64,000 nucleotides of DNA, taken from positions 1 through 64,000 of the forward strand of contig JALQPE010002018.1 in the NCBI GenBank assembly GCA_030407315.1. The letters are read 5' to 3'. Position 1 is the first letter of the stretch; every line of letters begins with the position of its first letter. Both the position numbers and the translations under genes were made by a program. Positions 3,001 through 26,169 of the stretch are shown piece after piece. The notes beneath the pieces are model-generated. The model saw only the letters and a list, made by a program, of their open reading frames with translations. It was not told the DNA's origin and did not search any database. The stretch is from Asparagopsis taxiformis. Taxonomy: Eukaryota; Rhodophyta; Florideophyceae; Bonnemaisoniales; Bonnemaisoniaceae.

Positions 3001-3193
3001 TATTCCGTATTGGTTGGTCGCGGTGACCTTTACCATTACGGGGTCGGCTTCAGCCGAGGAGACTTCCTGCAGGCGAGAAGTTAGTCTATGGCCTGCCCAC
3101 GCGCGGCCACATCTACTTGAAGACGGAGAAGGACGTCCTCACGGACCACATCCACACCGTCGAATATACAAGTACGATAGGAGCAATAGATAG
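1..3193 (+). pseudogene. ParB-like/2OG-Fe(II) dioxygenase fusion, copy A (decayed, 5' cut by window edge)
   Basis: This is a third copy of the gene seen complete at 39597-43243; base 1 corresponds to about 40035 there. Fragments of the family are readable in all three frames: the ParB-like VVSRVVRPHRVDELKK block near 118-170, the MEFINIHRLGK block near 530, and the C-terminal YFAVK, HTD-type and LKTEKDVLTDH blocks between 2330 and 3193. Dozens of one- or two-base insertions and deletions break it, many of them changes in run length (for example an extra T in the early CATTCCAG stretch, an extra A in GCAAAAGTACG). It ends with the same SNR-stop as the other copies. It could be a true decayed copy or a poorly polished contig end; the density of small indels with otherwise high base identity favours the latter at least in part. 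No intact reading frame can be assigned. Confidence 0.85.
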
Positions 3194-3689
3194 CATATCA
3201 GAAGTATTAAAACCTATACTACTGTTCCCTGCTATAAAGTTCTGTCTTTCTCATCTCAACATTGTTACCTTAGCCCATTTTCAGTTCTCATCTATACATC
3301 TGTCCATCTCATAGTTTAGTGCTACTCAGCAGATGCTTGCTACTTTTTAATATTAGTCTACAACGTTATATGATTTTACTAGCTAGGCCGTAGGGGGAGA
3401 CTAGTTTCAACCCTTGACAACGCGCAGATTTCGACTACGAGAGCCGTCACTGTGATAAATTATTTGTAGAATTTTCGTCTATCTCCCACCTACACTAGGC
3501 TACCTTAATATATACAGGGTATAACCTGAACAGAGACCACGTGAGGTAAAACTCCTGAGAGCTGCTCACAGCCGTACAGACCTTTGCTGAGCAATTTACC
3601 CGACTTCAAACTTCGCTTCCTACCTTTACCAGGATGAGAGAAGGACGAAAACCCTGCTGCTTACAGCCGAAGCCGTTTACCAGGGTTCC
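3194..3689. other. 3' flank of dioxygenase copy A, shared with copies B and C
   Basis: This gene-free stretch matches 7117-7621 and 43244-43748 almost base for base apart from small indels. It ends in a block containing GAGAGAAGGACGAA and GCTTACAGCCGAAGCC that leads into the 37-bp palindrome. No ORF or RNA gene is visible in it. Confidence 0.7.
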
Positions 3690-3726
3690 TTACAGCAAAG
3701 TCATCGTTACGATGACTTTGCTGTAA
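3690..3726. repeat. 37-bp palindrome, single copy at the A/B junction
   Basis: Two 18-base arms, TTACAGCAAAGTCATCGT and its exact complement, around one central base (T here). The palindrome joins the 3' flank of copy A directly to the interior of dioxygenase copy B, so it sits on a rearrangement breakpoint. Confidence 0.9.
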
Positions 3727-6700
3727 GAAACTCCGCAAACATTCCAGCTGCCGACGGCGCCAGCCGCGAGGGATCTGGTGCTCCTCTGCCCAGCTCGCCT
3801 GCTCCGGACATGATCATCGCGTCCGGCAGCGACTTGGCAGAGGATGCGGAGAAGGTCGATGATCACAACGCTCGTGACATCGTACCGAACAAGCCTCTCC
3901 GCAGCACCAGGCTGGCCTACCCTGGCACAGTGCCCATCCCGGTGGATGTGGACTACGACATAAGTCCGGAGAGCTGCCGAAACATTCCAGTCTTCATTTC
4001 CCCCTGGATGTTTCTCCTCCGGCAGTCGTGTCCAGGGTGGTCAGGCCGCATCGCGTTGATGAGTTGAAGAAAACGTTTCTCACTCAGGGATTTTCCGTGA
4101 TTGCTTCACGCGTGTCCGTCTGCGAGGTGATTGATTCCAATGCAAAAGTACGACTGCAATATGTCGATGGATCTCACCGAGTGACCGCGTTGAAGGCCAT
4201 TCTCGAGTCGGCTGGACCTGCTCCTGCGAAGGACAGTCCAGAGTGGGAGGAGTTTGTCAAGTCTGACATCTACCGTCGCTTGGAACTATTCCAGTCGACT
4301 TTCTCCTCCCACCGACTCGGCTTGGCCGGGATGTCTTCTGCTCCGAAGAAGTACTCCCGCTTTCACGGCTGATGAACTTCCACACCCACAATGTCAGCGA
4401 GGTAACAGTTGCTGACAATGTGTGCTCTGTGATGGAGTTCATCAATATCCACCGCCTGGGAAAGAAGAAGATCGAGCCGACCGTTCAATACATAAAAGAA
4501 CGGAAAGCGCTGAGCTGGATTCGTCCGAGACAGCTCATGCGCTACGTCTCGATCGCGCGAGGTTCAAGACCATTGAAAGCCCTGCTTTCAAGTACTGGTC
4601 GAGCATCCCGAACAGGCCGGAGTTCGTGCAGTTCTCTTCGACAGAGGATCTGGCTGGGTGTACGGTGAACTTGTTGTTCAATGGGTCGTTCAGGAGTGCT
4701 CCGGATGTGCAGAAGTGTTTCATCCTGGAGATGACGGCGCGCTACACTTGTAGCCGTCGGTCGGCCGGGCTGAAACCGTACTCGGTTGGTACCATTGGGC
4801 AGGAATGGATTGCTGGTTTGTTGGAAATCTTCGGGTACGTGAAGGAGGTGGCCGAGTACTGGAACGTGTCGGATGTGTTGAGGATGCTGGATGGGTCAAT
4901 TCCCAGCCGGGGTGACCCGAGCAAGAGCTTCGACATTCGCTCGCGCGTTGTCGAAGTTCTTGCTCAGATGGTCCCCAAGAAGGGGTGCTGGGCAGACTTC
5001 CGTCCCAAGGAAGGCCCCCCCGATGGTTACAGTTACGAAAATATTTTCCCCGTAAGAAGTCTGTCTTCGGGAAGGACGCCAGGAAAATGCTCCTGCGCGT
5101 CACTGGGTACCGCGACATGCAAATGCGGAAACGCTTTCACGCGATGTACCCAGACATCCCACATGCTGCGCTCCCAGCCACATGTGGTGATGATGCCCCC
5201 ATCCCTTCCTCTTCCAATTCCTTGCCCATCCCTTCATCCTCCATTCCTTTGCCCCCACCACCTCAACTGGAATCTTCCAGCAATTCCGAGGTTGCCCCTG
5301 TTCCTGTCTCTACCCCTGCCGTGTCTGCATCCTCCCCTGCGGTGACCCCGGTCAAGCCGACTGCGCGTGGTCCCCAGGATGGCAGCGAACGCTCTGGTCC
5401 AGTTTCCCACGCCGGGACTGGTACCCCCAACCGTCCTGTCCAAGCCGCGCAGGAGCAGGTCTCACCGGCTTCGCAGCCTGAGCCTGCGACTCCGGCTGCC
5501 GAGCAGCACCCTGCTGCTCCGGCCCCCGCTGTCGAAGCTTCCCGTTCTGCATCTGCTAGCAGTTCGGGAAGCTCCAGCGATGACAGCTTCGTCCCTTCAC
5601 CATCCGGTGGGGTTGGACAGAAGACGGTTGCGAGGATTTCGACGGAGGGCCCTACTCCCGAGAATGTGGTCGAGGGCAGCAGTGCGAAGGGCGGTGCAGA
5701 TCCTGACGAAGATGTCATTGAAGTCAGTGATTCTGCACCGCCCGGAGTGGAAACTTCTGGGAGGAAAGTGATGCCCAGAAGGAGTACCCGCCTGCAAGCG
5801 AGTCGTTCCGGTCGTGGTGGAACGGCGGGTGGTGCTGTGGAGGTCGTCGAGCTGGAGAGCGCCCCGAGGATGCGGGTGAAAACTCCATCCTCGGGAAGCG
5901 TAACTTGGAAGCCGCTTCTGCGACGCCCGAGCCTTCTACCAAAAAGAGAAGGCTCGGTGAGACTTCATCAAAGTCGTCGTCAAAGAAATCCAAGTCGGCT
6001 TCCCGAGGTCGCTCTCGGGAGCCGGTTCTCCAGTTCGACGACGCCCAGGAGAATCCCATTCCCGACAGCATCGTCGATGAGAATGTGGCCGCCGTTCTCC
6101 CCAGCGCAATTGCGTCTGGCAGCCGGATGAAGTACTATATGGAAAGTACGACGGTGGAGACGGTTCGGGCGGAAATGAGGGCGGCAGCATTCCAGGCAGC
6201 TGCATCGCCGGGTGCTGAGGATACGGTGGTGGACAGGTACTTTGCGGTGAAGAAGGCATTGTTGGAAAACTTGGGGGTTATTGTTATGGAAGGCCTGTTG
6301 GCATCGTCCACGGCTGGTAATGCGACGCATGAGTTGTTCGGTCACTTCGCTAGGCAGTTCCCGCTGGTTGAGGAGGTTGAAAAACCCTCCCAGCAGTCTG
6401 ATTCTAACGATGACGACAGGGAGCCACAGGACGAGCCGCCAGCTTTCGCAAAGCCCGGCTTCGATCCTTCGCCGTGGCAGTTCATCCACAACGTGGGTGA
6501 TGCGAAGGGCCGCATCGATGGTGGTCGTGGGCGCCTCTCTCTGCCGCGGCGTGAGTTGTGCGACAAGTTGGAGGAGGGGAATTTGGAGATGTATAAGAAC
6601 AAGTTGGTGGCAGAGCTTGCTCTTGGTGTTTGTGCGGAGTTCTTGAAGTTGGGAATGGAGGGTGAGGATCCTGTCTTCTTCCCGAAGACAGGATTGCGGC

Positions 6701-7116
6701 TGCTTCTTACAGCAGATGGGGCTGCGGACCAGGATGGGCACACGGACTTCAAGGTAGCGACGAATAGTGTTGGAAGTCCTACCACGTCTCCATCATATTT
6801 CATGATGTCGAGCGGAGCCGATGGGTTCTCTATAGTAGTTGCCCCTTATAGTCATGTATGCCTGGCCAGTCCGGGCGCCGATATGTGGAAGGTTCCCCCT
6901 CTCATCTTTTGGGTGCCACCCTATTCCGTATTGGTTGGTCGCGGTGACCTTTACCATTACGGGGTCGGCTTCAGCCGAGGAGATCTTCCTGCAGGCGAGA
7001 AGTTAGTCTATGGCCTGCCCACGCGCGGCCACATCTACTTGAAGACGGAGAAGGACGTCCTCACGGACCACATCCACACCGTCGAATATTACAAGTACGA
7101 TAGGAGCAATAGATAG
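3727..7116 (+). pseudogene. ParB-like/2OG-Fe(II) dioxygenase fusion, copy B (5'-truncated, frameshifted)
   Basis: Nearly identical to 39848-43243. It lacks the first roughly 85 codons and the upstream region: homology begins next to the palindrome at 3726, fuzzily at first and cleanly from about 3756. Reading order is ParB-like region (VDGSHRVTAL near 4165), middle region (YWSSIPNRPEF near 4600), Ser/Pro-rich linker with a basic stretch, then the dioxygenase-like region with HTD near 6740 and DLYHYG near 6955. Breaks relative to copy C are run-length changes: one C fewer near 4003, one T fewer near 4284, one G fewer near 4562, one T fewer near 5045 and one C fewer near 5865. At about 4915 copy B (CCGGGGTG) keeps the reading frame that copy C loses. 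Homopolymer indels of this kind are typical of consensus errors, so the truncated gene may be otherwise intact. Confidence 0.85.
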
Positions 7117-7621
7117 CATATCAGAAGTATTAAAACCTATACTACTGTTCCCTGCTATAAAGTTCTGTCTTTCTCATCTCAACATTGTTACCTTAGCCCA
7201 TTTTTCAGTTCTCATCTATACATCTGTCCTTCATCTCATAGTTTAGTGCTACTCAGCAGATTGCTTGCTACTTTTTAATATTAGTCTACAACGTTATATG
7301 ATTTTACTAGCTAGGCCGTAGGGGGAGACTAGTTTCAACCCTTGACAACGCGCAGATTTCGACTACGAGAGCCGTCACTGTGATAAATTATTTGTAGAAT
7401 TTTCGTCTATCTTCCCACCTACACTAGGCTACCTATATATATACAGGGTATAACCTGAACAGAGACCACGTGAGGTAAAATACTCCTGAGAGCTGCTCAC
7501 AGCCGTACAGACCTTTGCTGAGCAATTTACCCGACTTCAAACTTCGCTTCTTACCTTTACCAGGATGAGAGAAGGACGAAACTCCCTGCTGCTTACAGCC
7601 GAAGCCGTTTACCAGGGTTCC
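7117..7621. other. 3' flank of dioxygenase copy B
   Basis: Gene-free and near-identical to 43244-43748. It carries a TATATATATACAGGGTATAACC stretch near 7433 and a tail with GAGAGAAGGACGAAACTCCC that is one half of the hairpin seen at 8397-8473. No ORF is supported. Confidence 0.6.
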
Positions 7622-7910
7622 TTACAGCAAAGTCATCGTAACGATGACTTTGCTGTAAGGAACCGTTTCCTTGCAGTGGCCGAAGAATTTTTTACCGGGT
7701 AAAAAATCAGCAAGAAATTTTACCGGGTAAAAAATTGTGGCCGCTGTAATGTTTTGCTTTCTTACAGCAAAGTCATCGTTACGATGACTTTGCTGTAAGA
7801 AAACGTTTCATTACAGCGGCCACAATTTTTTTACCCGGTAAAGAAATCATGGCTGCTGTAATGATTTGTTTTCTTACAGCAAAGTCATCGTAACGATGAC
7901 TTTGCTGTCA
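7622..7910. repeat. Palindrome array, three 37-bp units
   Basis: Units at 7622-7658 (centre A), 7762-7798 (centre T) and 7874-7910 (centre A, last bases TCA instead of TAA). Between units 2 and 3 the spacer is itself an inverted repeat, CATTACAGCGGCCAC ... GGCTGCTGTAATG around TTTACCCGGTAAA, giving nested palindromes with a period of roughly 110-140 bp. Confidence 0.95.
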
Positions 7911-8220
7911 GCACCCCGCCGGAACTGCCAAAGCTGTAAGCAGTCTGGCTTCACCCTCTCCCCCATTTCTCTACTCCGCCTTCAGCATCCCAGCCTCTCT
8001 GGTGACGACTGACGCCTTTCGTTTCCCCCCTCACGCCCCCTCTCGCAATGAAATACTCGTCTATTACCACGATAGGCTACTCGTACTGCCGCCTTAATTT
8101 TCCTCTACACACACCCTCCCATCCGTCTCTTCCGTACTACGATCTTAGGCTATCCTACCTTACGATTATAGTTGTATAGTGAGTAGCTAGAGTCCTACTT
8201 ATTGACGACTATAGTGCACC

Positions 8221-8307
8221 GGAACCGGCGCCGGTTCCCGCCCGGGCGGGTTGAATATATATTTTATGCCGTGAGGCACAGGTACCATATGGTCGCTGTG
8301 GCTCACG
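8221..8307. repeat. Cluster of GC-rich palindromes and a hairpin between two arrays
   Basis: GGAACCGGCGCCGGTTCC (8221-8238) is a perfect 18-bp palindrome; CCCGCCCGGGCGGG (8237-8250) is a perfect 14-bp palindrome overlapping it; GCCGTGAG at 8268 pairs with CTCACGGC at 8300. The cluster lies in the gene-free spacer 7911-8502 and is repeated in cassette 2. Confidence 0.85.
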
Positions 8308-8396
8308 GCACAAGGAGTAGATTTTGCGACCAACAGCCGTCCAAACCATCCTCCCGTGATGTTCCCTACTTCACACTTCGCTTCTCATGTGAGACA

Positions 8397-8473
8397 GCAG
8401 GGAGTTTCGTCCTTCTCCCATCTTGGTAAAGGTACCTTTACCAAGAAGGGAGAAGGACGAAACTCCCTGCTGC
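8397..8473. repeat. Long inverted repeat (about 35-bp arms)
   Basis: The arm starting GCAGGGAGTTTCGTCCTTCT is followed, after the centre AAAGGTACCTTT, by its near-complete complement ending AGAAGGACGAAACTCCCTGC. One arm alone occurs as a flank at 7570-7595 and near 3633, so this copy may be a head-to-head junction of two flanks. The same structure is at 44524-44600. Confidence 0.85.
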
Positions 8474-8502
8474 TTACAGCTGAAGCCGTTTACCAGGGTT
8501 CC

Positions 8503-8806
8503 TTACAGCAAAGTCATCGTTACGATGACTTTGCTGTAAGGAACCGTTTCTGTAAGGAACCGTTCCTTACAGTGGCCAAAGAATTTTTTACCGGGTAAAA
8601 AATCAGCAAGAAATTTTACCGGGTAAAAAATTGTGGCCGCTGTAATGTTTTGCTTTCTTACAGCAAAGTCATCGTTACGATGACTTTGCTGTAAGAAAAC
8701 GTTTCATTACAGCGGCCACAATTTTTTTACCCGGTAAAGAAATCATGGCTGCTGTAATGATTTGTTTTCTTACAGCAAAGTCATCGTAACGATGACTTTG
8801 CTGTCA
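8503..8806. repeat. Palindrome array, three 37-bp units
   Basis: Units at 8503-8539 (T), 8658-8694 (T) and 8770-8806 (A, ends TCA). Compared with 44630-45030 one unit and its spacer are missing here, leaving a scar where AAGGAACCGTTTC is repeated at 8540-8566. This 97-bp difference is the main size change between the two cassettes. Confidence 0.95.
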
Positions 8807-9111
8807 GCATCCCCGGTAAACGGCCCGCACTGTAATGGGGTGACTGCTTCTCCTACATCGCTCTGTTACTGGTGTTCTACATGCTGCGTTGCTACACAAT
8901 TTCGCACTCACATCTTTCTAGTTTCTCTCCCTTTCGTATCCATAGGTATAGCAGTTGAAAAGTGGATAGTTTGCACTCCAGGCCGCAGATGCCTTCCTGC
9001 AGTCATGTCACGATTGTTGTAGTGTAGTCTATAATATCTAGCGCTCTTGGAAGATGATGCACAGTCTATTGTCTCTGTCAATGCGTGTTTACTCAAATCT
9101 ATCAAAGTAGC

Positions 9112-12100
9112 TCAGTTAGCTGGCCAATATTTTCTACCATAGTCAGCAAATATCTCCTCATCAGCTTCAACGTCTCTGGTCAGAACGACCTTGACAGCAT
9201 GGGGATTCTTGATATTCGAAGCAAAGTCCGGTTTGTCTATGGCATCGCCTTGTCGAAACTCGGCTGACTGTGTTCGACTCACCTCGGTCGCTTTCTCCGT
9301 TCCGTCAATGACCCGACAATCATTGAGGTAGCTGGTACAATTATAGACCGCTGGAACGAGCCAGACCTTCCGAACAGGTGCACCCCTCCCTATGTACGTG
9401 GTTTCCAATTCCATGTTGTAGTCCTGGAACCTCTGTCCTGTGCACCCAAATCCTTCCGGGCCGTACATCACTGATCTCTGCGGTTCCGAGTCTCGAATCT
9501 TCGCATAGAAAATCGTCCCGTTGTACCAGCCAATGACCGTCCCCTTCTTCAGTTTCTTCGCCGCGAATACGCCAAACCCACCACCTCTTACCTCCGATTG
9601 CGAAACATAGACACCGTAGAATGCGGCATCAGCAGCCAGAATCGCGTCCGGGTCTATGCTCCAAAACGAGTGCATGTCCTCGGCCGGCCACTGGTCCATA
9701 GGCACCCCGCTCAATCTGTGAAGCATAGAACCGTCCTTCTTCATTGACGCAACGAACACAAGCAGATGGTTCGGCAATGCTGTCACAGCAGGTAAACCTT
9801 CTGGTGCATCTGAGATGTGCTTCTGACGAAGCCTTGGAGCTTTTCCTGTGACCGGTACCGACTCGTCCCCAAGAATACTCTCCACCTCACGCTGCAAGAT
9901 CCCCCCATATCGCCCGGCTTTCACCTCACTGACGAAAGCATGCAGTATCCACTCCTGCGATGCATCGTGGCACCTTTTTTCCTTCTCACACCCAATGAAC
10001 CGACGATACGTACCATCCCTCAACGTCATACACGCTATGGCTGTGCTGTATGTTCCCGAGAAGAAATCCATCACGATATCGTTCTGCTTCGAAAATCGTT
10101 CCAGAAGCTCACGAAGAGTGGTCAACGCCTTCTGCTCATGGCGCAGTCGGTTGTTCTGCCCATCGTATTGAGCTTCACCAGCCGACAACCTCGGAACGTT
10201 GTCAATCGCGTTGGTGAACCCAGGGTGCCTCGATATGTCCGGATTGTGCAACCTGTAATCCACCATATCGTATGCAGCCATACCCTTCCCCCGCTTATAC
10301 GCATGGATAACGAAATCGTGCATATTATGCAGTGTGCACGTTTTCGTCGATGGATTGGACGTAAAGCTGTGTGGTCGGCGAGATAGCACGACTGGAACAC
10401 TGTCCACAATCATCTTGCCAGGCTCGGCATTTCTGATTGCATCCATCCATGCCACGAGTTGGCGCACGCTGGAATAGATTAGAGCATGACCGCCAGGCCG
10501 AAGAACTCGAACTATTTCACACGCAACACTCGCCAACTCTTCCGGCTCCAGAATATCGTACTCCGAGTTTTCTCTGCCGCCTTCCCGCCTCGTGTTGAAT
10601 GGAGGATCAGTGAGCACAAGCTGAACACTGTCCTCCAACACGCCATCTTCCAGGAAACTAATTTTGTCCTCCACCTCTTTGGCTACATCAGTGGCGTCAC
10701 AATTCACAGTGTGAATGTAACGCCCCATCACAGCTTCCAGCTTGGTGACATATTCCGGCTTGGATTCCTTTCCGACGTCAACGAGCGGTGCTTCTGTAGG
10801 CGATACAGTGTCAACCTCCATAGCGTCATCCTCGGCCGCACCTTCTCTTGTTGCTGTTTCGCTAGCAACCGCCGCATTATCGTCCTCTCCACCACCGCGC
10901 TCCAGCCTAGCCTTCTTCCTCTGTGGCTCCAGACTATCCTCTTCTATATCCTCGCTGCCATTGTTTGGCACTGCTGCGGATATTTCCATCTGCGCAGGTG
11001 CACCTTCAAGGATGCCAGGCTCGGGCGTATCCTCAAGACTGTGCAACTCATCCATGGTCAGAGGAAGCTTTCGTTGCTCTCGGGTTCGCAATAACCAAGC
11101 CTTCAGCCTCCTCTGACCATCCAGGGCATGAGACGTGTTCAACTTGGCTCGCATGAACGAGTTCAATCCGAACTTGTCAGGAGTGTCGAAAAGCAAGGCT
11201 CGAAGTCTCTGCATCAGCTGACCACGCTCGGCGAACACATTCACCTCAGTGACACATTGGCGTATCGACAGCAGGAAGGCGCTTGTCAATGATCGCAGCC
11301 TTGCATCCACAGCCACTGGAAGGTCGGCACAGAACCCGTTTTCACTGTCTACAGTTTTCGGGACAATGGTCAGGTTTTTCCGATGCTCCTCGACCGCGCA
11401 GCCATCAGACCGATTCGGGAGTGACCTGAAGCAAAGGCTCGCAGGATCGAATACCATGAACGGCCAGCACATCGATTCAACATCCTCATACCCCAACACT
11501 CTTGCCCCGGTATCCCACGCAGCTAACACACGGTCGACAACAAATCCAAGCTGGTTGGCTTGCGCACTGGATGTTGCAATTCCAACCATTCCACCACCAC
11601 CAATGGCCCCGGATGTGGCTCTGGCCCGCCTAGATGGCGCACTGCCCATCTCCTTACTGCGAATAGCCAAGATACACTGGCACATCATAACCATCAGCCT
11701 CCTGAACCGCTTCTGGCTAGCCTGCAAAGAATCTTGCATGTCGGATGTAGCGCCGTCTAGAAAGTACCTGCTCGAAAGCAGTTCGCGGTTCAGTGGAGAG
11801 GACAATTCTCCGCGGGGTGTCTTGCCAAACATTTCGACGGCACGAGAACTAGTCACCCCCACCTGTTTCGGAAACTCAACCATCCTCGGAGAATCACCCA
11901 TCTCTGCATTGAGTCCCCATGCATGACAAAACATTTGCCACAGACGCAAATCAATCGCACTCGAATCTTCTGCTCGGTGATACGGCCGAAGCACAGCCAG
12001 GATAGACATGCATGAGCTGTACTGCGGTTTACCACTCAGGCTTGAAGCAATTTGGCCGCTTGGATCGCAGGACTTGATCCAGCCCAACACATCGGCCATC

Positions 12101-12579
12101 CTCACAGACGAAATATGAGCGTACTTGTCCTTTCCTTTTTGGACCCAGTACTCGTCTCTGAGATCAACGGCGATCATCAGATACTCAACAAACATCATGC
12201 GCCTTTGCAGGCCTGCAATGTCGTTGGATGTCGTCGCTCTCACACGGTCCAGCACAACAGCAGTACTGCTGTTGGTGTCCGCCACGATAGACTCTTCTCG
12301 CATAGGAATCGTAACGCCAGGAGGAAAGACGCCCTTCTCCATTCCACGTACAATTGCCATGCAGCGGTGCGCTCCATCCAATATCTCCAGAACGCCTTCT
12401 CGAAACCTGCCAGTCACGGGATGAGCTGTGTCATAACCGCTGTTGCGAATGCTCTCCATGAGCGCTTCCACATGACTTGCATCAACATCGCGAATCGATA
12501 CGAATTTGCTGACTTGATTGGGGTCGATGAACACCCATCCGTCGTGCTTTTCACCGTGATTGTGGAACGTTCCTTCCAT
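9112..12579 (-). CDS. ParB-like + N6-adenine DNA methyltransferase + SET-domain fusion protein
   Basis: Predicted 1155-residue protein. The N-terminal region carries a ParB/sulfiredoxin-like core with LDGAHRCMAI near residues 67-76. The middle is long and unassigned, with an acidic/basic low-complexity linker around 540-620. Residues about 650-870 form a DNA methyltransferase: motif IV is TDPPFN (D at about 658), followed by VLRPGGHALIYSS, and motif I is MDFFSGTYST (D at about 838). Motif IV before motif I is the beta-class order, and DPPF/Y is the amino-N6-adenine (or N4-cytosine) signature. The C-terminus (about 980-1155) looks like SET: GGGFGVFAAKKLKKGT, YLNDCR and EIFADYGRKYW. The start is the ATG at 12579 in a GCCATGG context; an in-frame TTG three codons earlier is unlikely. 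It is divergent from the Tudor-like gene at 13093. DNA and histone methylation by one polypeptide is inferred, not shown. The identical copy is at 45336-48803. Confidence 0.85.
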   Translation of the reverse strand: MEGTFHNHGEKHDGWVFIDPNQVSKFVSIRDVDASHVEALMESIRNSGYDTAHPVTGRFREGVLEILDGAHRCMAIVRGMEKGVFPPGVTIPMREESIVADTNSSTAVVLDRVRATTSNDIAGLQRRMMFVEYLMIAVDLRDEYWVQKGKDKYAHISSVRMADVLGWIKSCDPSGQIASSLSGKPQYSSCMSILAVLRPYHRAEDSSAIDLRLWQMFCHAWGLNAEMGDSPRMVEFPKQVGVTSSRAVEMFGKTPRGELSSPLNRELLSSRYFLDGATSDMQDSLQASQKRFRRLMVMMCQCILAIRSKEMGSAPSRRARATSGAIGGGGMVGIATSSAQANQLGFVVDRVLAAWDTGARVLGYEDVESMCWPFMVFDPASLCFRSLPNRSDGCAVEEHRKNLTIVPKTVDSENGFCADLPVAVDARLRSLTSAFLLSIRQCVTEVNVFAERGQLMQRLRALLFDTPDKFGLNSFMRAKLNTSHALDGQRRLKAWLLRTREQRKLPLTMDELHSLEDTPEPGILEGAPAQMEISAAVPNNGSEDIEEDSLEPQRKKARLERGGGEDDNAAVASETATREGAAEDDAMEVDTVSPTEAPLVDVGKESKPEYVTKLEAVMGRYIHTVNCDATDVAKEVEDKISFLEDGVLEDSVQLVLTDPPFNTRREGGRENSEYDILEPEELASVACEIVRVLRPGGHALIYSSVRQLVAWMDAIRNAEPGKMIVDSVPVVLSRRPHSFTSNPSTKTCTLHNMHDFVIHAYKRGKGMAAYDMVDYRLHNPDISRHPGFTNAIDNVPRLSAGEAQYDGQNNRLRHEQKALTTLRELLERFSKQNDIVMDFFSGTYSTAIACMTLRDGTYRRFIGCEKEKRCHDASQEWILHAFVSEVKAGRYGGILQREVESILGDESVPVTGKAPRLRQKHISDAPEGLPAVTALPNHLLVFVASMKKDGSMLHRLSGVPMDQWPAEDMHSFWSIDPDAILAADAAFYGVYVSQSEVRGGGFGVFAAKKLKKGTVIGWYNGTIFYAKIRDSEPQRSVMYGPEGFGCTGQRFQDYNMELETTYIGRGAPVRKVWLVPAVYNCTSYLNDCRVIDGTEKATEVSRTQSAEFRQGDAIDKPDFASNIKNPHAVKVVLTRDVEADEEIFADYGRKYWPAN

Positions 12580-13092
12580 GGCGAACAAAGGTAGAGTTTT
12601 TAAGAAAGGGATAGTTGGTTGCTGCTTGACCAGGGTGGCGCAAAGCAGAAGTTGGTTGTTTAAAACAAAGTGTCAGCGAGTGGTAGCACTTCGGTGGCTG
12701 TTTCCTTTCCACCCCTGTCCGAACCTTTACAAGATAACTACATCGACTGTTAGCTCAATAATCAATGTAATACTAAAGTAATACTCAAAATATTTTTCCA
12801 TGCAATTTATTGGGCCCCGTAACATCTCTAAGCGTATCTTTGTAGTCCAATCGTATGCATCCGACATTCACTTCTAGAACGATTATTCACATCAAATTTT
12901 ATGCTGCAATCAGTTCATGGCAGACATCATCCACACTGACGTGTCAATTTTGTCAATTGTCCATTCTATTTCTACACCACCTAAACATCTCTTCTGGACC
13001 TTTCCAATCCTCCTAGTATATACTACTCTTTAGCAGAAGGTAACGGTTAGGCTTTCACTAATACAACAATTCTATCCCATAGCTATCCCAAC
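12580..13092. promoter_or_regulatory. Divergent intergenic region between the methyltransferase-SET and Tudor-like genes
   Basis: About 513 bp with no ORF, AT-rich, separating two divergently transcribed genes, so it should hold both promoters. TATATACTACTC lies near 13016-13027, about 70 bp before the Tudor-like ATG, and could be a TATA-type element; this is a guess from position and composition only. Confidence 0.4.
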
Positions 13093-14454
13093 ATGCTTCC
13101 TCTCGCTCCAAACGACGTTATAGAAGTTCAATGGGAACTTCGGCCGTTTGGGAGGAAACGAAAAATTGTGTGGTGGTCTGCAATCGTCAAGGAAATTACT
13201 CAGGTCAAGACCGAAACAGACCCATTCCTCCATGCATTGCTCGAATACAAAGCTGAATATGGTTTCGACTCTACCCTTTCTCAAGTCAAGATTTCAGATC
13301 GTAACGAGCTCGTCGACAAGGATTCCGGAAGGGTTCTCCCGTGGCGAAGTGGTGAGCTTCGCAGTATGGACTCACCTGCATCCCCAGCAGAGAGAGACCC
13401 GGACTACGGCATTGACCACACTCGCCACCGCCACCGCGGCATCCTTCAAGATTGCACTGCGGATCAAATGAAGAAGACCATAGCAGAAATGCTGGCAAGA
13501 TTGGAAAAGCTGGAGTCAGCTGCCAAACATCCTCTTCCCCCTCCATTCGATTCCAACAGCTCCATGACCTCCTCTGCTCTGACTGTATGTAGCATTCTGT
13601 TTCAGAAGCTTGGTGTGTACACGGACAAGCCCCTCTCCCTCCGGATGACAAAATCCGAGCACTCCAGGGGAATGCGACAAACATCGCAAGAAGAAATCAG
13701 AGTACAGGCTGACTGCTCCCTTGCTCAATTCCGCACTATTGCCATTCAATGCAAGGCGAAAGAGAATCGTGATGTTCTCTTCCTGCCGTCCTTTGAGGAC
13801 ATCACCTTTCCCTCTGGAAATGAGTCGGATCTTTCCATCATTTTCCCCACCTTTCAGGCACTATGTGACTCCATAGGTACCTCGCAACACGGGTTCCAGA
13901 AAATATTGGTGAAGAGCAGGGCGGAACGCGATGGAGGCAGCTCATCGATTGTCCGAATTTTAGGAAATCTAGTCGACGTTGACTGCTCTCATGATGCTCC
14001 TTCTTCCGCATTTCTCGTCGGCTCATCTGCTTACGTCCTGTCCAGCCCAGACCAACGTATGACAGTTCTTTGCAGAGACTCCTACGAGTTTGACCATGTC
14101 AACAATACATTTTTACATCCCCTATGTCTTAGCCAACTATCACAGTCTAGCATCGTGGACTCTTTCCACCTACGTGATAAGGCTACTGTTACTTATGGAG
14201 CAACGTTTTCGTTACTGTGGAGACGTATTCAGCGCCGAGCTTGTTACAGCACTTTCCAGCCTCTATCAACCGCAGAGACGTTTGGTACACTACATCTACG
14301 CTTACCTTGCTGTATTTTCAGTGGTACTACTATATGCCAGGAGCTTGAAGACATTGGCTATGAGGCTATCTCTCGTCTTGGCTTCAATGCGGATTCAGAC
14401 ACTACCCACCCACCCTCTCCTCCACCTGCCACCTGCAGTCCGGAGCAAAAATGA
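13093..14454 (+). CDS. Tudor-like domain protein
   Basis: Predicted 453 residues, starting at the ATG in AACATGC. Residues about 6-40 (NDVIEVQWELRPFG then VWWSAIVKEI) have the strand pattern of a Tudor/Agenet-type barrel. The same WW-A-V-EI pattern opens the independent gene at 55598-53906, whose second stretch is more clearly Tudor-like. A short predicted coiled coil (MKKTIAEMLARLEKLES) lies near 121-140, and a beta-rich, serine-rich C-terminal half follows with no assigned fold. Tudor-type domains commonly bind methylated lysine or arginine, so a reader role next to a SET-containing writer is a reasonable inference. It is convergent with the coiled-coil gene at 16256-14730, a pairing repeated in cassette 2 and probably at 53-55.6 kb. 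The identical copy is at 49317-50678. Confidence 0.7.
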   Translation: MLPLAPNDVIEVQWELRPFGRKRKIVWWSAIVKEITQVKTETDPFLHALLEYKAEYGFDSTLSQVKISDRNELVDKDSGRVLPWRSGELRSMDSPASPAERDPDYGIDHTRHRHRGILQDCTADQMKKTIAEMLARLEKLESAAKHPLPPPFDSNSSMTSSALTVCSILFQKLGVYTDKPLSLRMTKSEHSRGMRQTSQEEIRVQADCSLAQFRTIAIQCKAKENRDVLFLPSFEDITFPSGNESDLSIIFPTFQALCDSIGTSQHGFQKILVKSRAERDGGSSSIVRILGNLVDVDCSHDAPSSAFLVGSSAYVLSSPDQRMTVLCRDSYEFDHVNNTFLHPLCLSQLSQSSIVDSFHLRDKATVTYGATFSLLWRRIQRRACYSTFQPLSTAETFGTLHLRLPCCIFSGTTICQELEDIGYEAISRLGFNADSDTTHPPSPPPATCSPEQK

Positions 14455-14729
14455 TAAAGCACACCTATCCGTAGTTATCCTGTTCCTGGGTATTCCATTC
14501 TAGAGCTCCTGTGGCCATCAATTTCTAGTAAAGACGGATACCCTCGCCCCTTCCTACTTCGACTATTCCACTACCTGTCTCTGCGCTGTTCCTTCGACTT
14601 GACACTATCGTCTGACTGGTTTCCTGATGTCTCGCACCTATCTACTTCCATCTATTACAAAATTCACCTCAACAGAAATTTTATTTCTTCATTCTTCGTC
14701 TACTACACCGAAACTGGTTTCATCCGATA

Positions 14730-16256
14730 CTACTCCCCTTCATTCTCGATTTCATCATCGACGAATACCTTCACATATTCTGCATCTCCTCCGTCCTCTT
14801 CCATAGACCTGAAGCTCTCCTCCAGCACTGATTCCCCCCCATCGTCTACGTTCAGTTCTTCATATCTATCACGCGATATAGTCAAAACCTCCTCATTCAT
14901 GAACCGACTACTCACCCGCTCCCCGGGAAGAAGCAGTTTCACTGCTTCATTGATTTCCCGGATTTGCGCTCCTTCCACCTCTGTTCCACTTTGAAATTTC
15001 AAAATCGTTCGGAACCCGTATGCAAGTATGTAGATGAATTGCAAGGAGTATTCTGAACGTCGCAGGAACATGTTCTTATCAGAACATTGCGTGTAGGCGA
15101 CTGCAAAGTTCAGTGCAACCTCTACTAAATTGATCCTCCTAGTCAAAAACCTCTTGTCCGGTTCTCCAATTATTTGAACTTCGTACTCGACTTTGAATAG
15201 CATTTCTTTTCGCACTGCAATGAAGTCGCGAAGAATCTTCATATTCTTGTCATCCATTGCTGCACGCTCCGCTGCATTCATTTTCCTCTGCGCCGAGTAC
15301 AGACTTGGAACTGACTCAATGTCCAGCCCACCGTCGTGCAAATGATGCTCCATTCGGACTGAACCTTGAAACCCACTGTATAGAACGAATCCAAGATCTC
15401 GGATGAACCGGTTTCGCACATGATCTCTGGACTTGTTCATAAACCCGGTCACTGCTGTGAGTGCCGATTTCGTCACAGTGATGCCTACCTCCTTTCTGTG
15501 CAACGGCCCATTGTCTCCAACCTTTCTTCGCTTCTGCTTTCGAGCGGCCCCATCACTTCCCTCGGACGTCCCATGCATTCCATCCATGCGAGCAGAGTCC
15601 GTTCCGCGAATTGTCTCCTCAATGGTCCCGGTAGTCACATACCCCCGCGCCCTCCACCGTTCGATACCTTCCGACGTTCCATTGGAGCTGGAACGGTCTC
15701 CTCCCTCTCTGAAAGAATTGTTTTGACACGTATTCTTGATTAAAGAGGTCACAACTTGGCAGCGCAATTCAATGTGGTTCCGGCCGGCAAGCGTCCTATT
15801 GAACACATCCTTTCGCTCATTGCTCTGCCTGGCGAACATCAGCGTATTGATTAGCTGGCATCCGTTGAAATGCCTATCCCTCTTATCCACCATTGCCTTC
15901 GTGTACGTTGGAACAACAGCACACAGCACAGCACACACCATTTCGAACGTGAACGATTTCTCCGCATCCTGCGCAATGCGGAGACGTTCCCTGTCCTTCT
16001 CGGAGGCGATCTTCTTCGGATGTCCTTGTCCCTGGCTCAGAAGCCCATCGACGATGCTCTTGACCTCCTGCATATCGGTGTTTAGCATGGAGACAGTCTT
16101 GGCGACATTTCCGAGAGTCTCGCGTAATTGAATGGTGCTCTTCTCGACGGCATCCATTTTATCACTCAGGGCTTTCAACTCTGCAGTGATGTTCGAAAAG
16201 CCCTCACGCGTTATTTCGGAAAATGCGGCGATGCTTACGGAGGTTTCGGGATTCAT
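14730..16256 (-). CDS. Coiled-coil protein of a cassette-associated family, function unknown
   Basis: Predicted 508 residues from the ATG at 16256 (MNPETSVSI); the frame is open further upstream only through a GTG. Residues about 10-80 have heptad-like spacing consistent with a coiled coil. A basic tract (RKQKRRKVGD) near residue 245 could be a nuclear localisation signal. The C-terminal half has a pattern shared with the 761-residue protein at 20113: RNRFIRDLGFVLY resembles RDRLFGSLGYTKLM, and RRSEYSLQFIYILAYG resembles RRYSQYVGVAFQQLVG. The extreme C-terminus is acidic. I recognise no catalytic motif. The constant company of methyltransferase-SET, Tudor-like or transposase genes suggests a DNA-binding or scaffold role, which is inference only. 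The identical copy is at 50954-52480. Confidence 0.7.
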   Translation of the reverse strand: MNPETSVSIAAFSEITREGFSNITAELKALSDKMDAVEKSTIQLRETLGNVAKTVSMLNTDMQEVKSIVDGLLSQGQGHPKKIASEKDRERLRIAQDAEKSFTFEMVCAVLCAVVPTYTKAMVDKRDRHFNGCQLINTLMFARQSNERKDVFNRTLAGRNHIELRCQVVTSLIKNTCQNNSFREGGDRSSSNGTSEGIERWRARGYVTTGTIEETIRGTDSARMDGMHGTSEGSDGAARKQKRRKVGDNGPLHRKEVGITVTKSALTAVTGFMNKSRDHVRNRFIRDLGFVLYSGFQGSVRMEHHLHDGGLDIESVPSLYSAQRKMNAAERAAMDDKNMKILRDFIAVRKEMLFKVEYEVQIIGEPDKRFLTRRINLVEVALNFAVAYTQCSDKNMFLRRSEYSLQFIYILAYGFRTILKFQSGTEVEGAQIREINEAVKLLLPGERVSSRFMNEEVLTISRDRYEELNVDDGGESVLEESFRSMEEDGGDAEYVKVFVDDEIENEGE

Positions 16257-16787
16257 CTTGACCTTGCAATTGGAGTTTGCTAAAAGGAGAATTGCTTTGA
16301 AGGATGTCACGCTTAGTACAGCAGTGTTGTAGCAAATATCATTTCAGTGGATGCATCCATCCTGGTCTACTCTACATAATAATAATGCTTCCCAGTGCTC
16401 CGTAACGGTTATTTTTCATAATTTAGTGGTGGATGGTGCGTATTCTTTCCTTTGCCACCACCCACGTCCTGTGCATACCACACCTCGCTACCAGACTGAC
16501 GTCTCCTACTAGACACTTTCAATGCAAAGATAGATAGGTATAATTTGAAATGCTAAACTCAACATATTATAGCTACTATGTACATTCTCTCCTTACGGTG
16601 AGACAAACCAGATATGTTCTGTTCTCCCAATCTTCCTTTCTCCAACGTCCTATTCAGCATCTAGCTTCCCCGCACCCAACTATCTGTAAAGCACCATCAC
16701 AATTAATATAGTCGTATACCACACACCATTCCAATATTTACCTTCACACCAACACTATGCTCCATATTTCCTCTAAGTCCACTCCAC
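16257..16787. other. Gene-free spacer
   Basis: I see no ORF with coding character, no RNA gene and no repeat until the ACAGTAAA array begins. It should contain the promoter of the minus-strand coiled-coil gene. Confidence 0.5.
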
Positions 16788-17135
16788 CAGACAGTGTTGT
16801 CAAACAATGCACGGTACTACCCGCAGACAATACAATTTGCTATCTACACTACTGTCTACAGATTTCCCCAGACAGTGCAGTAATACAGTACAATGTATTG
16901 TCTCAGACAGTAAAATGTACTGTCTGCACATACTGTCTGGCGGCAACACTTCCGGACAGTAAAATTTACTGTTCTGGACAGTAAATTTTACTGTTTTTGG
17001 TACTGTCCAGATTTCGTGCCAGTTTACTGCTGCAGCAGTATTCTGAAATTTCCAGACAGTAAATTTTACTGTCTCCGCGCACTGTCTTGGCCAGACAGTA
17101 ATTTTTACTGTCTCAGACAGTAAATTTACTGTCTG
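16788..17135. repeat. Array of ACAGTAAA-TTTACTGT palindromes at the cassette right end
   Basis: Repeated half-sites AGACAGTAAA and TTTACTGTCT form perfect or near-perfect palindromes, best at 17053-17074 and in the pair at 17093-17135, with looser ones from 16788 onward (CAGACAGTG, GGACAGTAAA, TACTGTCTG). The last unit ends 23 bp before the point (17158) where the two cassettes stop matching. No ORF here is credible. Confidence 0.9.
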
Positions 17136-17158
17136 TTTTCATTCTCAACACCGTAGTG

Positions 17159-19452
17159 CTTACACCTGGATGACAAAATTCATCCTGATGGATATGGTGA
17201 AAAGTAGAGACAAGAACCAGTGCGCAGCACAGTGCATTTAGGGACCTTGTGAGGAAGTTCTTCGACCGGTTGCAGTTTCTTATCGTCAACCCGGACCTGT
17301 ACACCTGGCCGGAGTCCGACCGCTGGGGGGCGCTGGAAATATACTTGTCAAGCGGAAATCCGGACAAGCTGCCAGCGTACTTTGACACCCTCGACGAAGA
17401 CGTTATGGCTGTCCTCCGCCCGGCACCACAAGCCGCGGACGCAGAAAAGGTCCCCAAGCCGGTTGATGACACTCCCACTCGTCGCAACACAGGAGGGAGA
17501 GGTTTGGTTCCGTCGACAAGACACACAACCAGGCTTCAACTTGGACCTGGGAGGACCAGTCTTACTGCCCAAGGGCCGTCTCCCCCGTCACCGTCACCCC
17601 ATGCGACAGAAGAGCAGGAAAGTGAAGGGCAGGCTCTCGCAAAGGACTTTCTTTCGAAAATGAGTCAGTATTGCCGGGTGTACGACGTCCCTTTCGAAGA
17701 TTTGGTCAGTGCCGACGAGAGCCGAGAACACGTGCCCATCACGGGCAACGTTCAGCTCATTCTGACTGATCCGCCCTACAATGTTCGTCGTAAGAGGAAC
17801 GATTCCAACTCTTCGTACGACAGGCTAACTGCAGAAGATATGCAGGCTAGCATCGAAGTGTTTGACGAGCTGTTGCGCCCCGGTGGCCACGGCATCGTGT
17901 TCTGCTCCGTTTTGCAGTTCTACGAATGGTTCCATTACTTGGAAACGTACAAAGGACCGCAGTCAGAAGGCCCAACCGATGCTGCTGCCAGTGATGACGG
18001 GTCGGATGAAGAAGAGGTTACGTCCATGAATTCGGACTCCGAAGCATCGCAGCACAGTGGCGAAGAAAGTGCGGATGAGGAGGAGACGAGGACGAGGAGG
18101 AGGAGGACGTCGTTCGGAATTCAGTTTTCTTCGTTGACGAGGTACCTCTGTTGTTTGTCCGACTACCTGGGCACCTCTATCAAATGCCGGGGCGGAAGAG
18201 GTACCAACGCATGAACATGGCAGAGGTCGCTATCCACTTCTGGAAGCGAGGTGTTCCGTTCAAGACTGGAAGCGAGATGGTGGCCTATAGGAACCACGGA
18301 TACATGGACGGCACGTACCCGGCGTGGTGCAACGTCACCATCAATATGCCCGCCATCGATTCGAATGAGATGGTGTGGCGAACAAGGAGCACAACCGGTG
18401 CTACGGTCAGAGTTCGTGCAGAGCAGAAGAGCGTCGCTCTCATGATGGAGTTGATCAGCCAGCATTCACAGCCTGGTGATATTGTTGTCGATCCATTCTC
18501 TGGCACTTTCGCAACGGGAAAAGCAGCTATGAGCTTGCCTGAGCACCGTGTTTTCGTCGGCAGTGACATGGACAAATTGTGTGTGGCACGATCGCTTCCA
18601 AAGCTGTGTGCAGTCATGTCACGTGTAATTCTTTCAAACAACACTGACATGAGGGTCACGACAGAAGCGAAACAGAGTGCTGAGAAGTTCTTGGCGTCCC
18701 CCTCTGTCACGATGCGTACACAGAGGGAACGCAGGATCATCGAACCCCCACCTGGCCTTCCCCTGTACCAGAGGTTCCCGAAATATATTCGGCAGTACCT
18801 CTGGCAGCTGTGCCCAGAGTCGATTGCGTCGCACGAGCACATGGAAAAACCGGTACATTATTGGCCACCTTCCCTGCGCCGCTGGTTGCAAACTGAAAAC
18901 CCTCGCGTGATGCGGGCACACGATTGTGTTGCGAAAAAATTGAGCGTTCGACCATCGCTGATTAAGCATCCAAATGCAGGAAGAGGGCTCTTCGCTGAAC
19001 AGACATTTAATGTTGGCGACGAAGTATGTGCATACTACGGAACTGTTGTGTACTCTGATATGAGCAAGGAGTCGATGAGGTTCGCGTACGGAGAGGGTCA
19101 CATGGCGATAACGAAGGAAACATTCTTGATGTATGCCATCAAGCTGTATGCAACAGCGGAGGACGACGAAAACATCGAGCATCCAATTTGGATTGTTCCG
19201 GCTCCGTTCTGTTCGGCGCAGTTCATCAACGACCCGCGGTATTTGCGAGGTGAGGACACTCCGGCGGAAGACACCAGGCGGATGGCCAACGTCGAGTTTG
19301 TCGAGAACTACAGCAGCGGTTCGACGGGGAAGAAGCTCAAGGCGAAGGACCTAGAAAATCCGAAGATCATTGTAGTACGTGCAATCCGCGATATCCGTCC
19401 GGGGCAGGAGCTCTACGTTCATTATGGGACAGCGTTTAGAGCATGGAATTAG
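17159..19452 (+). pseudogene. Second methyltransferase-SET fusion (5'-truncated by cassette 1, two frameshifts)
   Basis: A divergent paralogue of the 1155-residue protein. Family homology can be followed up to the first base after the cassette end: the stretch TKFILMDMVKSRDKNQCAAQ (frame of the ATG at 17170) aligns with SAFLLSIRQCVTEVNVFAER of the paralogue, then the frame shifts near 17235 into FRDLVRKFFDRLQFL. Motif IV is TDPPYNVRR near 17766 with LRPGGHGIVFCS after it. A second frameshift lies in the GAGGAGACGAGGACGAGG repeat near 18075-18100. Motif I is VVDPFSGTFATGKAAM near 18488. The C-terminal SET-like part has GRGLFAEQTF, FINDPR and ELYVHYG. The ParB-like N-terminus is absent from the window. 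Beta-class adenine methyltransferase order is kept. The frameshift in the purine-rich repeat may be a sequencing error; the 5' truncation looks real. Confidence 0.8.
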
Positions 19453-19483
19453 GGTCACGAAAGATGTTTTCATTTCGACTACA

Positions 19484-19489
19484 AATAAA
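19484..19489 (+). terminator. AATAAA polyadenylation-like signal after the methyltransferase-SET gene
   Basis: AATAAA about 32 bp after the stop codon at 19452, a normal position for a eukaryotic cleavage signal. Confidence 0.4.
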
Positions 19490-19817
19490 GCTACGTTCCA
19501 GAGTTGAAGTATATCATATAATGCAGCATGTCCAGCCACCATTAGTCCAGGGTGAAACCTATTGAGCAGTACTCGCCTGTCAAAAACCAATCGTTCACAC
19601 TCTAGGTGCACTTCGTCCGAGCAGTGAACCTGACTGCTTGGATGCTGTTATGCGTGCAGATGCAAAATACAAGACCAAGTTGAAATGGACGCCCGGTGGA
19701 TGTCCAGCTCAGTTGCATTGCTGTCCAGCCCAGAAATTCTACAATTCAGGGCAGAAAAAAATATTGCAAAAAACATCGATTTCAGCGGGTCGATTGTGCC
19801 GTACGGCACACCCCCAT

Positions 19818-19851
19818 CTCAAAAACATGTTCACATGTGCATGTTTTTGAG
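19818..19851. repeat. Hairpin CTCAAAAACATG / CATGTTTTTGAG
   Basis: Perfect 12-bp arms around a 10-bp loop (TTCACATGTG, itself containing CACATGTG) in the 660-bp gap between the methyltransferase-SET and coiled-coil genes. The rest of 19453-20112 has no credible ORF. Confidence 0.7.
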
Positions 19852-20112
19852 AATAGCCCAAATTTTAATTCAAATCAGGACGTCTTCCGGACATAGGGGT
19901 GCTCGCGGCCTAGCTCGACAGCTGTAATTGTACCTCATTAAATACTGTTGATGACTGCCTACCGTATACAATCTGGGCTGTTGGCGTATTCTCCGGTACT
20001 TGACCTGACCTGAACGTTCATCGCAGACCGTTGTGGTTACCGACACTATACAGCAATCTTTTTTGTATCTCGTGCAACTCAATCGTTCCATCGCTTCCGG
20101 GAAGGCTTCATT

Positions 20113-22398: not shown

Positions 22399-22475
22399 AA
22401 TTAGTGCAGTAAATGTGACGTTGACTAGAAGGCTTATCATGTAGTACATTATCAATAGAGTGCTGCGATTTAGAT

Positions 22476-25400: not shown

Positions 25401-25519
25401 CGAGCGTTGTTGAAATGTTGGGGAGAGGGGTTGAAACGGTAGCGACACGTTCGCTCATGCAGCGCGAGCGCATAAGCATCTACGCAGTAGTAGAAGCACC
25501 CTTCATACTTGCATTCCAT
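22476..25519 (-). CDS. Plavaka/KDZ-like DNA transposase (one frameshift)
   Basis: About 1015 codons in two overlapping frames. The start is the ATG at 25519. Residues 1-27 form a zinc-finger-like C-x5-C-x12-H-x4-C (MECKYEGCFYYC ... LHERTCRYR), the N-terminal finger usual in Plavaka proteins. Next come the family blocks LQVYSDKSSTSLKSSAIVAYP and GLTIVGYLP (about 250-310). Between 24413 and 24500 the frame changes: the first frame runs on to a stop, while PILANYCCDFPEAKEL and PCHRCYIP (24340-24430) continue in the other. Then follow FEPLHNLHLGISKL, FKFHLLDHLPGDLQRYG and the E-containing AGPYEHSHLLFKQSYRKTS. These D ... D/E ... E blocks are typical of the CACTA-related Plavaka/KDZ group. The frame change could be a one-base error or a real mutation; I see no intron consensus that fixes it. 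Confidence 0.8.
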
Positions 25520-26115
25520 GTCGAGTTTTGACGCAAAAGGGAGGATTGCGAGCTGAACAGGGGAGACTGTGCCGTCCAGATGCGACCAATTTTATTTTGT
25601 GGTGCTTTCGAGACTTGGAATGTAACGTGTTCGTAGTTTTGTGGGTAGTAGTTTTGTGCTCACTCCAGCTGACATCCCAACGGTGGAATTTAACCGAGAG
25701 TTCAATCATTTCCAACTGTTACATCACATTGCGTGCTGGCAACGTGTGCATGGAAGGACGAACGACTGCCCTGGGAGATGAATTTTCAATTAATTCATTT
25801 GTAATAATAAACTTTTTTATTTCCAAACTTCGTGGAATCTGAATGTGCTTTACAGCGGATATGCCACGGATCATGTAAGGAAAGCAAATGGATTCTCATA
25901 TATATGATTATATGTTTATATTCGTTGTTCTCGATCCGGATCTCATTGTTCGGGGAATCAGAGACCATGGCTTGGGCCATACTCAATCTCACTGCCGGCG
26001 ATGATTTCGAGTATGCACAGCAAGACTTAAGCGGACGCAGAAAGCTGTCCGGTCGACGCCGCAGGCTCCACTCCGCCCTCATCACCGACTGATATTCTTT
26101 GACCGACTTTGCTTT

Positions 26116-26153: not shown

Positions 26154-26169
26154 CTTCGTTCCATCCTCT

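Follow-up and report, generated by a model that had tools for sequence, protein, structure and literature searches.

Giant Plavaka transposons are reportedly present in high copy in the red alga Bostrychia, in work ascribed to Petroll in 2025, and the CACTA/EnSpm elements, which belong with Plavaka to the CMCT group, are characterized by dense subterminal repeats. Sola1-1_Ec32 of Ectocarpus is a giant DNA transposon with an accessory gene for a ParB-like protein with an N4C/N6A methyltransferase (PMC12477816). The same paper proposes that ParB-like–methyltransferase proteins bind and modify their own transposon; similar ParB–methyltransferase genes are cited from green and red algal elements, and a Bostrychia study is given there as the source for accessory genes in giant EnSpm elements and for ParB-methyltransferase proteins. 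In fungi, several transposon superfamilies, Plavaka and EnSpm among them, have acquired TET/JBP dioxygenases, which are proposed to counter methylation, according to the available text of Kojima 2025 (PMC12730594), which also cites HarbingerS and MuDR elements that carry SET genes. PMC12810828 gives background on KDZ. In PMC12695648, the word ParB is absent from the main text, and transposon-borne methyltransferases are not mentioned in the accessible part. Here we describe a ≈26.4-kb DNA transposon with CACTA-type ends, hereafter family 1, in the red alga Asparagopsis taxiformis. It was found in the first 64 kb (the window) of a 75,895-bp contig (JALQPE010002018.1; C1892) of a 141 Mb assembly in 3156 contigs (GCA_030407315.1), and it encodes a fusion of a putative ParB-like region, a DNA amino-methyltransferase and a SET domain, together with two dioxygenase-like proteins. 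A Plavaka element beside one of its copies is called family 2.

Family 1 resembles the CACTA/EnSpm elements in its CACTA ends, short inverted repeats and dense subterminal repeats, but differs from them in having a transposase that is nearly unrecognizable by Pfam. With Sola1-1_Ec32, as portrayed in the available part of PMC12477816, it shares the layout of a giant DNA transposon with a ParB-like–methyltransferase accessory gene, whereas the family-1 methyltransferase is also fused to SET and accompanied by two dioxygenase-like proteins that are putatively ParB-like as well, and both the ends and the transposase are of another type. A dioxygenase inside a DNA transposon, in family 1 a candidate one, is the feature in common with the fungal TET-carrying elements; however, ParB has no occurrence in the main text of PMC12730594, no DNA methyltransferase partner is described in its accessible part, and the candidate family-1 dioxygenase lacks a TET/JBP profile match. 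HarbingerS and MuDR are alike in having a SET gene in a DNA transposon, and differ in that the same available text mentions no fusion to a DNA methyltransferase. Family 2 may be of the same kind as the giant Plavaka elements of Bostrychia, whereas family 1 has a different transposase. Algal transposons with ParB–methyltransferase accessory genes and fungal transposons with dioxygenases are thus already known, and what is new is the combination of a writer with a candidate oxidase, together with the SET fusion. We found no description of a ParB–methyltransferase–SET protein, or of a transposon with both a writer and a dioxygenase, among the papers listed in searches of mostly open-access literature, judged by title and abstract opening.

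A sequence-only reading of the window had singled out a repeated 13.4-kb block, 3727–17158, as a mobile cassette with a candidate eraser, a DNA/histone writer, a candidate reader and a coiled-coil protein. The repetition is real. The block is present as two copies, at 3748–17158 (copy A) and 39868–53382 (within copy B), and in a self-comparison of the window 39868–44919 matched 3748–8807 at 97.7% identity and 44738–53382 matched 8499–17158 at 99.8%. Rather than being a unit in itself, however, the block is the right half of the ≈26.4-kb transposon. On the right, at 17158, the block stops where the transposon itself ends, while its left limit, 3727, is a junction within the dioxygenase gene, adjoining a third copy of that gene, and is not an element boundary. 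This third dioxygenase copy (1–3731, + strand) is truncated by the contig start and is 97.0% identical to 3914–7663, with 68 gap openings per 3.8 kb (67 in the comparison with 40037–43790); sequencing error or low-quality sequence is the likely cause. Copy A (3748–17158, +) consists of the right half only. Copy B (28033–53382, +) is complete except for the leftmost ≈1.1 kb: homology to L033 and L034, two of the loci fetched from the rest of the genome (L numbers), begins at 28033, and in L033, the copy on contig C337, another 1096 bp separate the point matching 28033 from the left terminus.

This left end was reached by an upstream walk, in which two of four fetched stretches went past 33626 and were extended leftward. 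A left boundary at 34647 was considered and rejected, since two of the four upstream stretches stop near this position and the other two continue to 28033 and beyond. Near 34647, L029 meets the right end of another element and L032 meets a different CACTA-like sequence, so that nested insertion is the likelier explanation for the two stops. We also rejected a tandemly duplicated 36-kb unit as the origin of both blocks, because the sequence after 17158 is unlike that after 53382.

The two ends of the element carry CACTACGGTGTTGA as inverted repeats of the CACTA type. The right terminal inverted repeat, CACTACGGTGTTGAGAATG, lies at 53364–53382 (−) in copy B and, by pattern match, at 17140–17158 (−) in copy A. 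The right end reads ...CTCAACACCGTAGTG, and the left end, in L033, reads CACTACGGTGTTGAAAAGG..., which is the inverted complement of the right end over 14 bases. The window gave two matches to the terminus pattern and 100 shuffles gave 0.00 on average, which excludes chance. Exact matches genome-wide numbered 212 for the right end (a 26-mer) and 869 for the left end, and the reversed control patterns gave 0. Among 24 right ends that were read, 22 in fetched loci and two in the window, there were 24 different flanks; the end in L029, counted among the 22, is that of a slightly diverged element. The flanks of seven left-end matches likewise all differed, and one of the seven, on C788, covers 60 bp only, at 93%, and is possibly part of another element. 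The proposal that the repeated sequence is mobile is supported by the discovery of both ends and by the different flank at each right end read. The motif GACAGT is concentrated near the termini, occurring 32 times in the left 900 bp (L033) and 16 times, counting both strands, in the right subterminal region (52483–53382, 900 bp), as opposed to 0–2 times in internal windows and 9 times in the last window, which reaches the right end.

To sample the right half, 20 of 39 other dioxygenase places were taken, mostly by contig room, and up to 10 kb was fetched downstream of each. All 20 continued into the region of the methyltransferase–SET, 467-aa and coiled-coil genes, and 19 ended at window position 53382–53384; the remaining one, L022, leaves its contig inside the coiled-coil gene. 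In L012, ≈0.9 kb is missing within the methyltransferase gene. Over the 8.6-kb right part, 18 of the 20 copies (aligned over at least 8.6 kb) showed 0–6 substitutions and 0–30 gap positions relative to the window, and the other two, aligned over 4.5 and 6.7 kb, showed 23 and 5 substitutions. The family-1 copies are young. Complete left-to-right chains with all six genes were present on three contigs: C44 (27,188 bp), C632 (26,511 bp) and C337 (26,406 bp). In the region 1–3316 of L033, the left end of the C337 copy lies within what, judged by eye, appears to be a Ty1/copia-type polymerase gene.

From left to right, the six genes encode a candidate transposase (1288 aa; 29558–33424, +), the dioxygenase-like proteins DIOX1 (1087 aa; 34757–38020, +) and DIOX2 (39471–43243, +), the ParB-like–methyltransferase–SET protein (1186 aa; 45336–48896 in copy B and 9112–12672 in copy A, both −), a 467-aa protein (49275–50678 in copy B, an open reading frame, and 13051–14454 in copy A, by similarity, both +) and a coiled-coil protein (537 aa; 50954–52567 in copy B and, by similarity, 14730–16343 in copy A, both −). 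When the genome was searched with these genes, 86–117 of 1224–4154 candidates were scored per search, best first, so that counts of places and of co-occurrence are lower bounds. The candidate transposase was found at at least 101 places, all scored ones being 100% identical over 414 aa, DIOX1 at at least 117 (99–100% identical where scored), the 467-aa gene at at least 91 (all scored ones identical and open) and the coiled-coil gene at at least 100 (all scored ones identical over 417 aa). The transposase and DIOX1 were at a fixed distance in at least 56 of the 101 scored transposase places. The 467-aa gene was at a fixed distance from the coiled-coil gene in at least 68, and from the methyltransferase gene in at least 53, of its 91 scored places, and DIOX1 and the 467-aa gene were within 16 kb of each other in at least 22 of 117. 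The chance fraction under random placement, computed for three pairings, was ≈0.4–1.3%. Within this genome, the genes recur together outside the window, and neither of the outcomes named beforehand as refuting the cassette, a lack of co-occurrence or single-copy host genes, was seen.

The central part of the 1186-aa protein was identified as a DNA amino-methyltransferase of the permuted N6A/N4C type (PF01555, E 2.4e-16), with a DPP(Y/F) motif. By profile comparison its nearest relatives of solved structure are the adenine-specific enzymes DpnA, MboIIA and CcrM (E 4e-9 to 6e-4). The SET domain matched PF00856 with E 4.4e-6 and 27.5 bits, against a curated cut-off of 22.4, and its nearest solved relative is SETD7 (E 0.001). 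The usual SET motif is NHSC. At this position the family-1 domain reads differently, so that the domain is a putative enzyme. The proposal of a DNA and histone writer thus holds at the level of domains. Eight further sequences were scanned with Pfam up to E 1, namely the counterpart of this protein in a public collection, which is the same, five relatives with 27–38% identity and two pieces of the family-2 gene in the window; all eight matched the methyltransferase and six matched SET. The five relatives all retain the methyltransferase, and all except P0006 extend into the SET region. Judged from these relatives, the methyltransferase–SET architecture is old.

At its N-terminus, the 1186-aa protein has a DGAHR motif and a match to the PHROG ParB profile (E 0.003). 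Six enzyme proteins were scanned in this way; one methyltransferase relative matched with E 0.093, and two others had no match. The N-termini of the methyltransferase and dioxygenase proteins align with each other by hhalign (E 4e-4), with DGAHR and DGSHR in register, which weakly supports a ParB-like domain common to both enzyme types, as the sequence-only reading had suggested.

DIOX1 combines this putative ParB-like N-terminus with a dioxygenase-like C-terminus that displays an HTD...YH...R pattern; HxD...H...R is expected, along with a double-stranded beta-helix fold, of the 2-oxoglutarate/Fe(II) dioxygenase superfamily. DIOX2, read as a second protein of this kind from the same pattern and from similarity to DIOX1 (35% identity in the C-terminal part), occupies two overlapping frames in copy B. 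Both proteins and a relative with 40% identity conserve the HTD...H...R pattern, and the distance from HTD to the second H is 72 residues in both DIOX1 and DIOX2, with R and H after it. The frame change in DIOX2, at ≈41,030, falls at a site whose length varies between copies (L001–L008), and the break may therefore be a sequencing or copy-specific fault. The DIOX2 frames had no Pfam match to a TET/JBP profile up to E 0.1.

The 467-aa protein had been taken for a Tudor-like reader, but searches of Pfam (to E 5) and of PHROGs and NCBIfam (to E 0.5) gave no match, and this assignment is unsupported. The coiled-coil protein gave weak matches to coiled-coil-type profiles. Diverged members of all four gene types had been claimed elsewhere in the window. 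This was correct for the dioxygenase, which recurs as DIOX1 within copy B, and for the methyltransferase–SET gene, which recurs at 17201–19452, but tblastn detected no second Tudor-like or coiled-coil relative in the window. Taken as a whole, the earlier interpretation is partly supported.

The candidate transposase was recognized from its relatives and weak profile matches. It has 16 relatives at 22–43% identity and one identical counterpart, and across the 17 proteins the motifs PCxxC, DPY, PDH, KPN-HR and E--HQ are invariant or nearly so. In Pfam, one of the 17 matched tnp2 (E 0.0077) and one matched Plavaka (E 0.18), a faint likeness that weakly supports kinship to the EnSpm/Plavaka (CMCT) group; considering the transposase together with the ends, membership of this group is likely. 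Fungal KDZ transposons had been named for comparison in the earlier reading, but a KDZ transposase is not supported here: no KDZ profile matched the candidate up to E 5, or the 17 members up to E 1, and the ends are of the CACTA type.

Most family-1 genes are separated by arrays in which a near-perfect 37-bp palindrome, TTACAGCAAAGTCATCGT[A/T]ACGATGACTTTGCTGTAA, alternates with a second palindrome. In copy B, self-comparison and a palindrome scan placed these arrays between the transposase and DIOX1 (33545–34078), 3' of DIOX1 (38241–38566), 5' and 3' of DIOX2 (39068–39391 and 43679–44070) and 3' of the methyltransferase–SET gene (44597–45060); two matching arrays of copy A lie within 7552–8836. 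All 24 occurrences of the left arm of the palindrome in the window are in family-1 sequence, and none is in the family-2 stretch, 17159–28032. The exact 37-mer with A in the middle occurs 3355 times forward and 3358 times in reverse in the genome, a total of 6713, compared to 0 for the reversed control. The arrays vary in length among some of the 20 fetched copies. One locus, L046 (C21:10000–15700), consists of 5.7 kb of palindrome arrays and related sequence with no frame of 150 aa. It begins where a diverged DIOX2 gene ends (3'), and a left terminus lies ≈4.7 kb before it, which suggests a shorter, dioxygenase-only derivative.

The presence in one element of a possible DNA-address domain, a DNA/histone methyltransferase and possible dioxygenases suggests self-directed chromatin rewriting. 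Building on the observed termini, copy number, fixed gene order and methyltransferase and SET domains, we propose that the carried enzymes rewrite the marks on the element's own chromatin and thereby allow it to escape host silencing, a reading to which we give an even chance. The ParB-like domains, we infer, would bring the enzymes to the element's own DNA, with the 37-bp palindrome arrays as the most promising target. At these sites, N6-methyladenine (or N4-methylcytosine) would be written by the methyltransferase and a histone mark by the SET domain, while host marks such as 5-methylcytosine would be removed or oxidized by the dioxygenases. The rewritten marks would keep the element expressed and able to jump; the transposase would act at the termini, on the CACTA sequences and the subterminal GACAGT repeats. 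A more specific version, which we put forward tentatively and with clearly less confidence, is that ParB-like domains on the methyltransferase–SET writer and on the two erasers bind the palindrome arrays, so that one element could set and reset DNA and histone marks on its own copies, as bacterial ParB finds parS. If the proposal is correct, a single element, recently spread to ≈200 right ends in this genome, combines enzymes of opposite epigenetic effect with a way of directing them at itself, and the same fusion of methyltransferase and SET is cargo of two transposon families within one genome. The arms race between transposons and host silencing would then become directly testable, and modifiers of DNA and histones that are self-targeted could be obtained from a natural source.

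Several results weigh against escape from silencing by self-directed enzymes, or against parts of it. The PHROG ParB profile matched neither of the two dioxygenase proteins scanned, Pfam ParB was unmatched up to E 1 in the eight sequences scanned, and the hhalign probability of the alignment between the methyltransferase and dioxygenase N-termini was only 35%. Up to E 5, no dioxygenase family of Pfam, TET/JBP included, matched DIOX1, and two AlphaFold2 models of the dioxygenase, built from four-row alignments, had mean pLDDT of 36 and 32, neither of them usable. The eraser proposed earlier is therefore a matter of the HxD...H...R pattern only, from which we infer oxidation of DNA, and membership of TET/JBP is unsupported. 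A profile comparison of the candidate transposase with the Plavaka protein of the window was not significant (hhalign E 0.076, probability 0.7%); in this comparison, PCxxC and DPY aligned with the same motifs of the Plavaka protein.

The element ends raise further difficulties. A 2-bp match that might represent a target-site duplication (2–5 bp long in CACTA/EnSpm elements) was seen in only one of the three copies with both ends read (C615; not C44 or C632), and there was no target-site match in C788, whose left end may be that of another element. Left ends are also about four times as numerous as right ends, an excess for which a simple one-element model does not account, and most left ends are therefore those of different or shortened elements. 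Examples of this genome-wide excess are on C21, C35 and C228. Lastly, the observed/expected (o/e) CpG ratio of the element, 0.88, is unremarkable next to 0.84 for the right flank, 0.98 for family 2 and 1.06 for the flank left of the L033 element, so that the host may simply lack 5-methylcytosine. Of 48 substitutions among copies, 12 were C>T or G>A, which is no excess. The absence of CpG depletion and of a C-to-T excess is weakly compatible with escape from silencing.

The best-surviving alternative is that the enzymes govern transposition, with methylation or oxidation of the subterminal repeats or of newly replicated DNA determining when and where the transposase binds, and no role in anti-silencing. 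Methylation controls transposase binding in some well-studied plant elements, the dense GACAGT repeats at both ends of family 1 are typical sites for such control, and DIOX1 travels together with the candidate transposase. However, the palindrome arrays, which are the more obvious address, lie between the genes rather than at the ends, and a SET domain would be unnecessary for this purpose. We consider this explanation unlikely, but the most serious of the alternatives.

Alternatively, the enzymes might be directed at rivals or at other copies, laying down repressive marks that silence competing transposons or limit the element's own copy number. The occurrence of two distinct families, each with its own methyltransferase–SET gene, is what would be expected of competitors. 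On the other hand, with 212 exact right ends family 1 is not strongly self-limited at present, and a dioxygenase would counteract the added marks. This seems improbable to us.

Slightly less probable still is that the genes are passengers, acquired sequences that a giant transposon carries along without gaining from them. According to the available text of PMC12477816, giant transposons of Ectocarpus often carry extra genes, mostly of unknown function. The frames are open in all 91 scored copies of the 467-aa gene, and 75 of 86 scored methyltransferase–SET places have the full 1186-aa frame; but these are only the best-scoring places and the copies are young, so open frames weigh little against passengers. 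The stronger point is that the relatives at 27–38% identity retain the methyltransferase, and most of them also the SET part. Host chromatin genes repeated by an ordinary segmental duplication or by the assembly itself, to which the error-rich appearance of the contig start and the cutting of copy A at a junction might point, can practically be dismissed in view of the inverted-repeat termini, the 24 different right flanks and the hundreds of exact ends.

Two high-copy transposon families in this genome each carry their own methyltransferase–SET gene. The family-2 gene (17201–19452, +) is 26% identical to that of family 1; in the window its 5' part is missing at the right end of copy A and its frame is broken, but elsewhere in the genome it was found at at least 93 places at 99–100%, many in frames of ≈1084 aa. 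It is followed by a gene for a 794-aa coiled-coil protein (20014–22398, +), without BLAST similarity to the coiled-coil protein of family 1, and by the Plavaka transposase (22476–25591, −), which in the window occupies two frames that match PF18759 with E 2.8e-11 and 1.5e-6. The Plavaka gene was found at at least 100 places at 100% over 420 aa, with 79 of 100 scored places in frames of 1036–1037 aa. In at least 21 of 93 scored places, the family-2 methyltransferase–SET and Plavaka genes were 4.3–4.4 kb apart, whereas the family-1 transposase was within 8 kb of a scored Plavaka gene in none of 101 scored places. The termini of family 2 were not found. Tandem repeats beside the Plavaka gene, at 26189–27218 (period ≈229 bp) and 27558–27909 (24–48 bp), are possibly its subterminal repeats.

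A viral origin of the enzymes was also considered and set aside, as close relatives of the methyltransferase–SET or DIOX1 proteins were not confirmed in viral contigs in a search with single-protein patterns, by which distant relatives would be missed. Outside the family-1 arrays, the window contains near-perfect palindromes of 38 bp (26116–26153) and 62 bp (55981–56042). To the right of copy B, at 56744–59006, several pairs of 16–19-bp inverted repeats at matching distances suggest a further inverted-repeat element.

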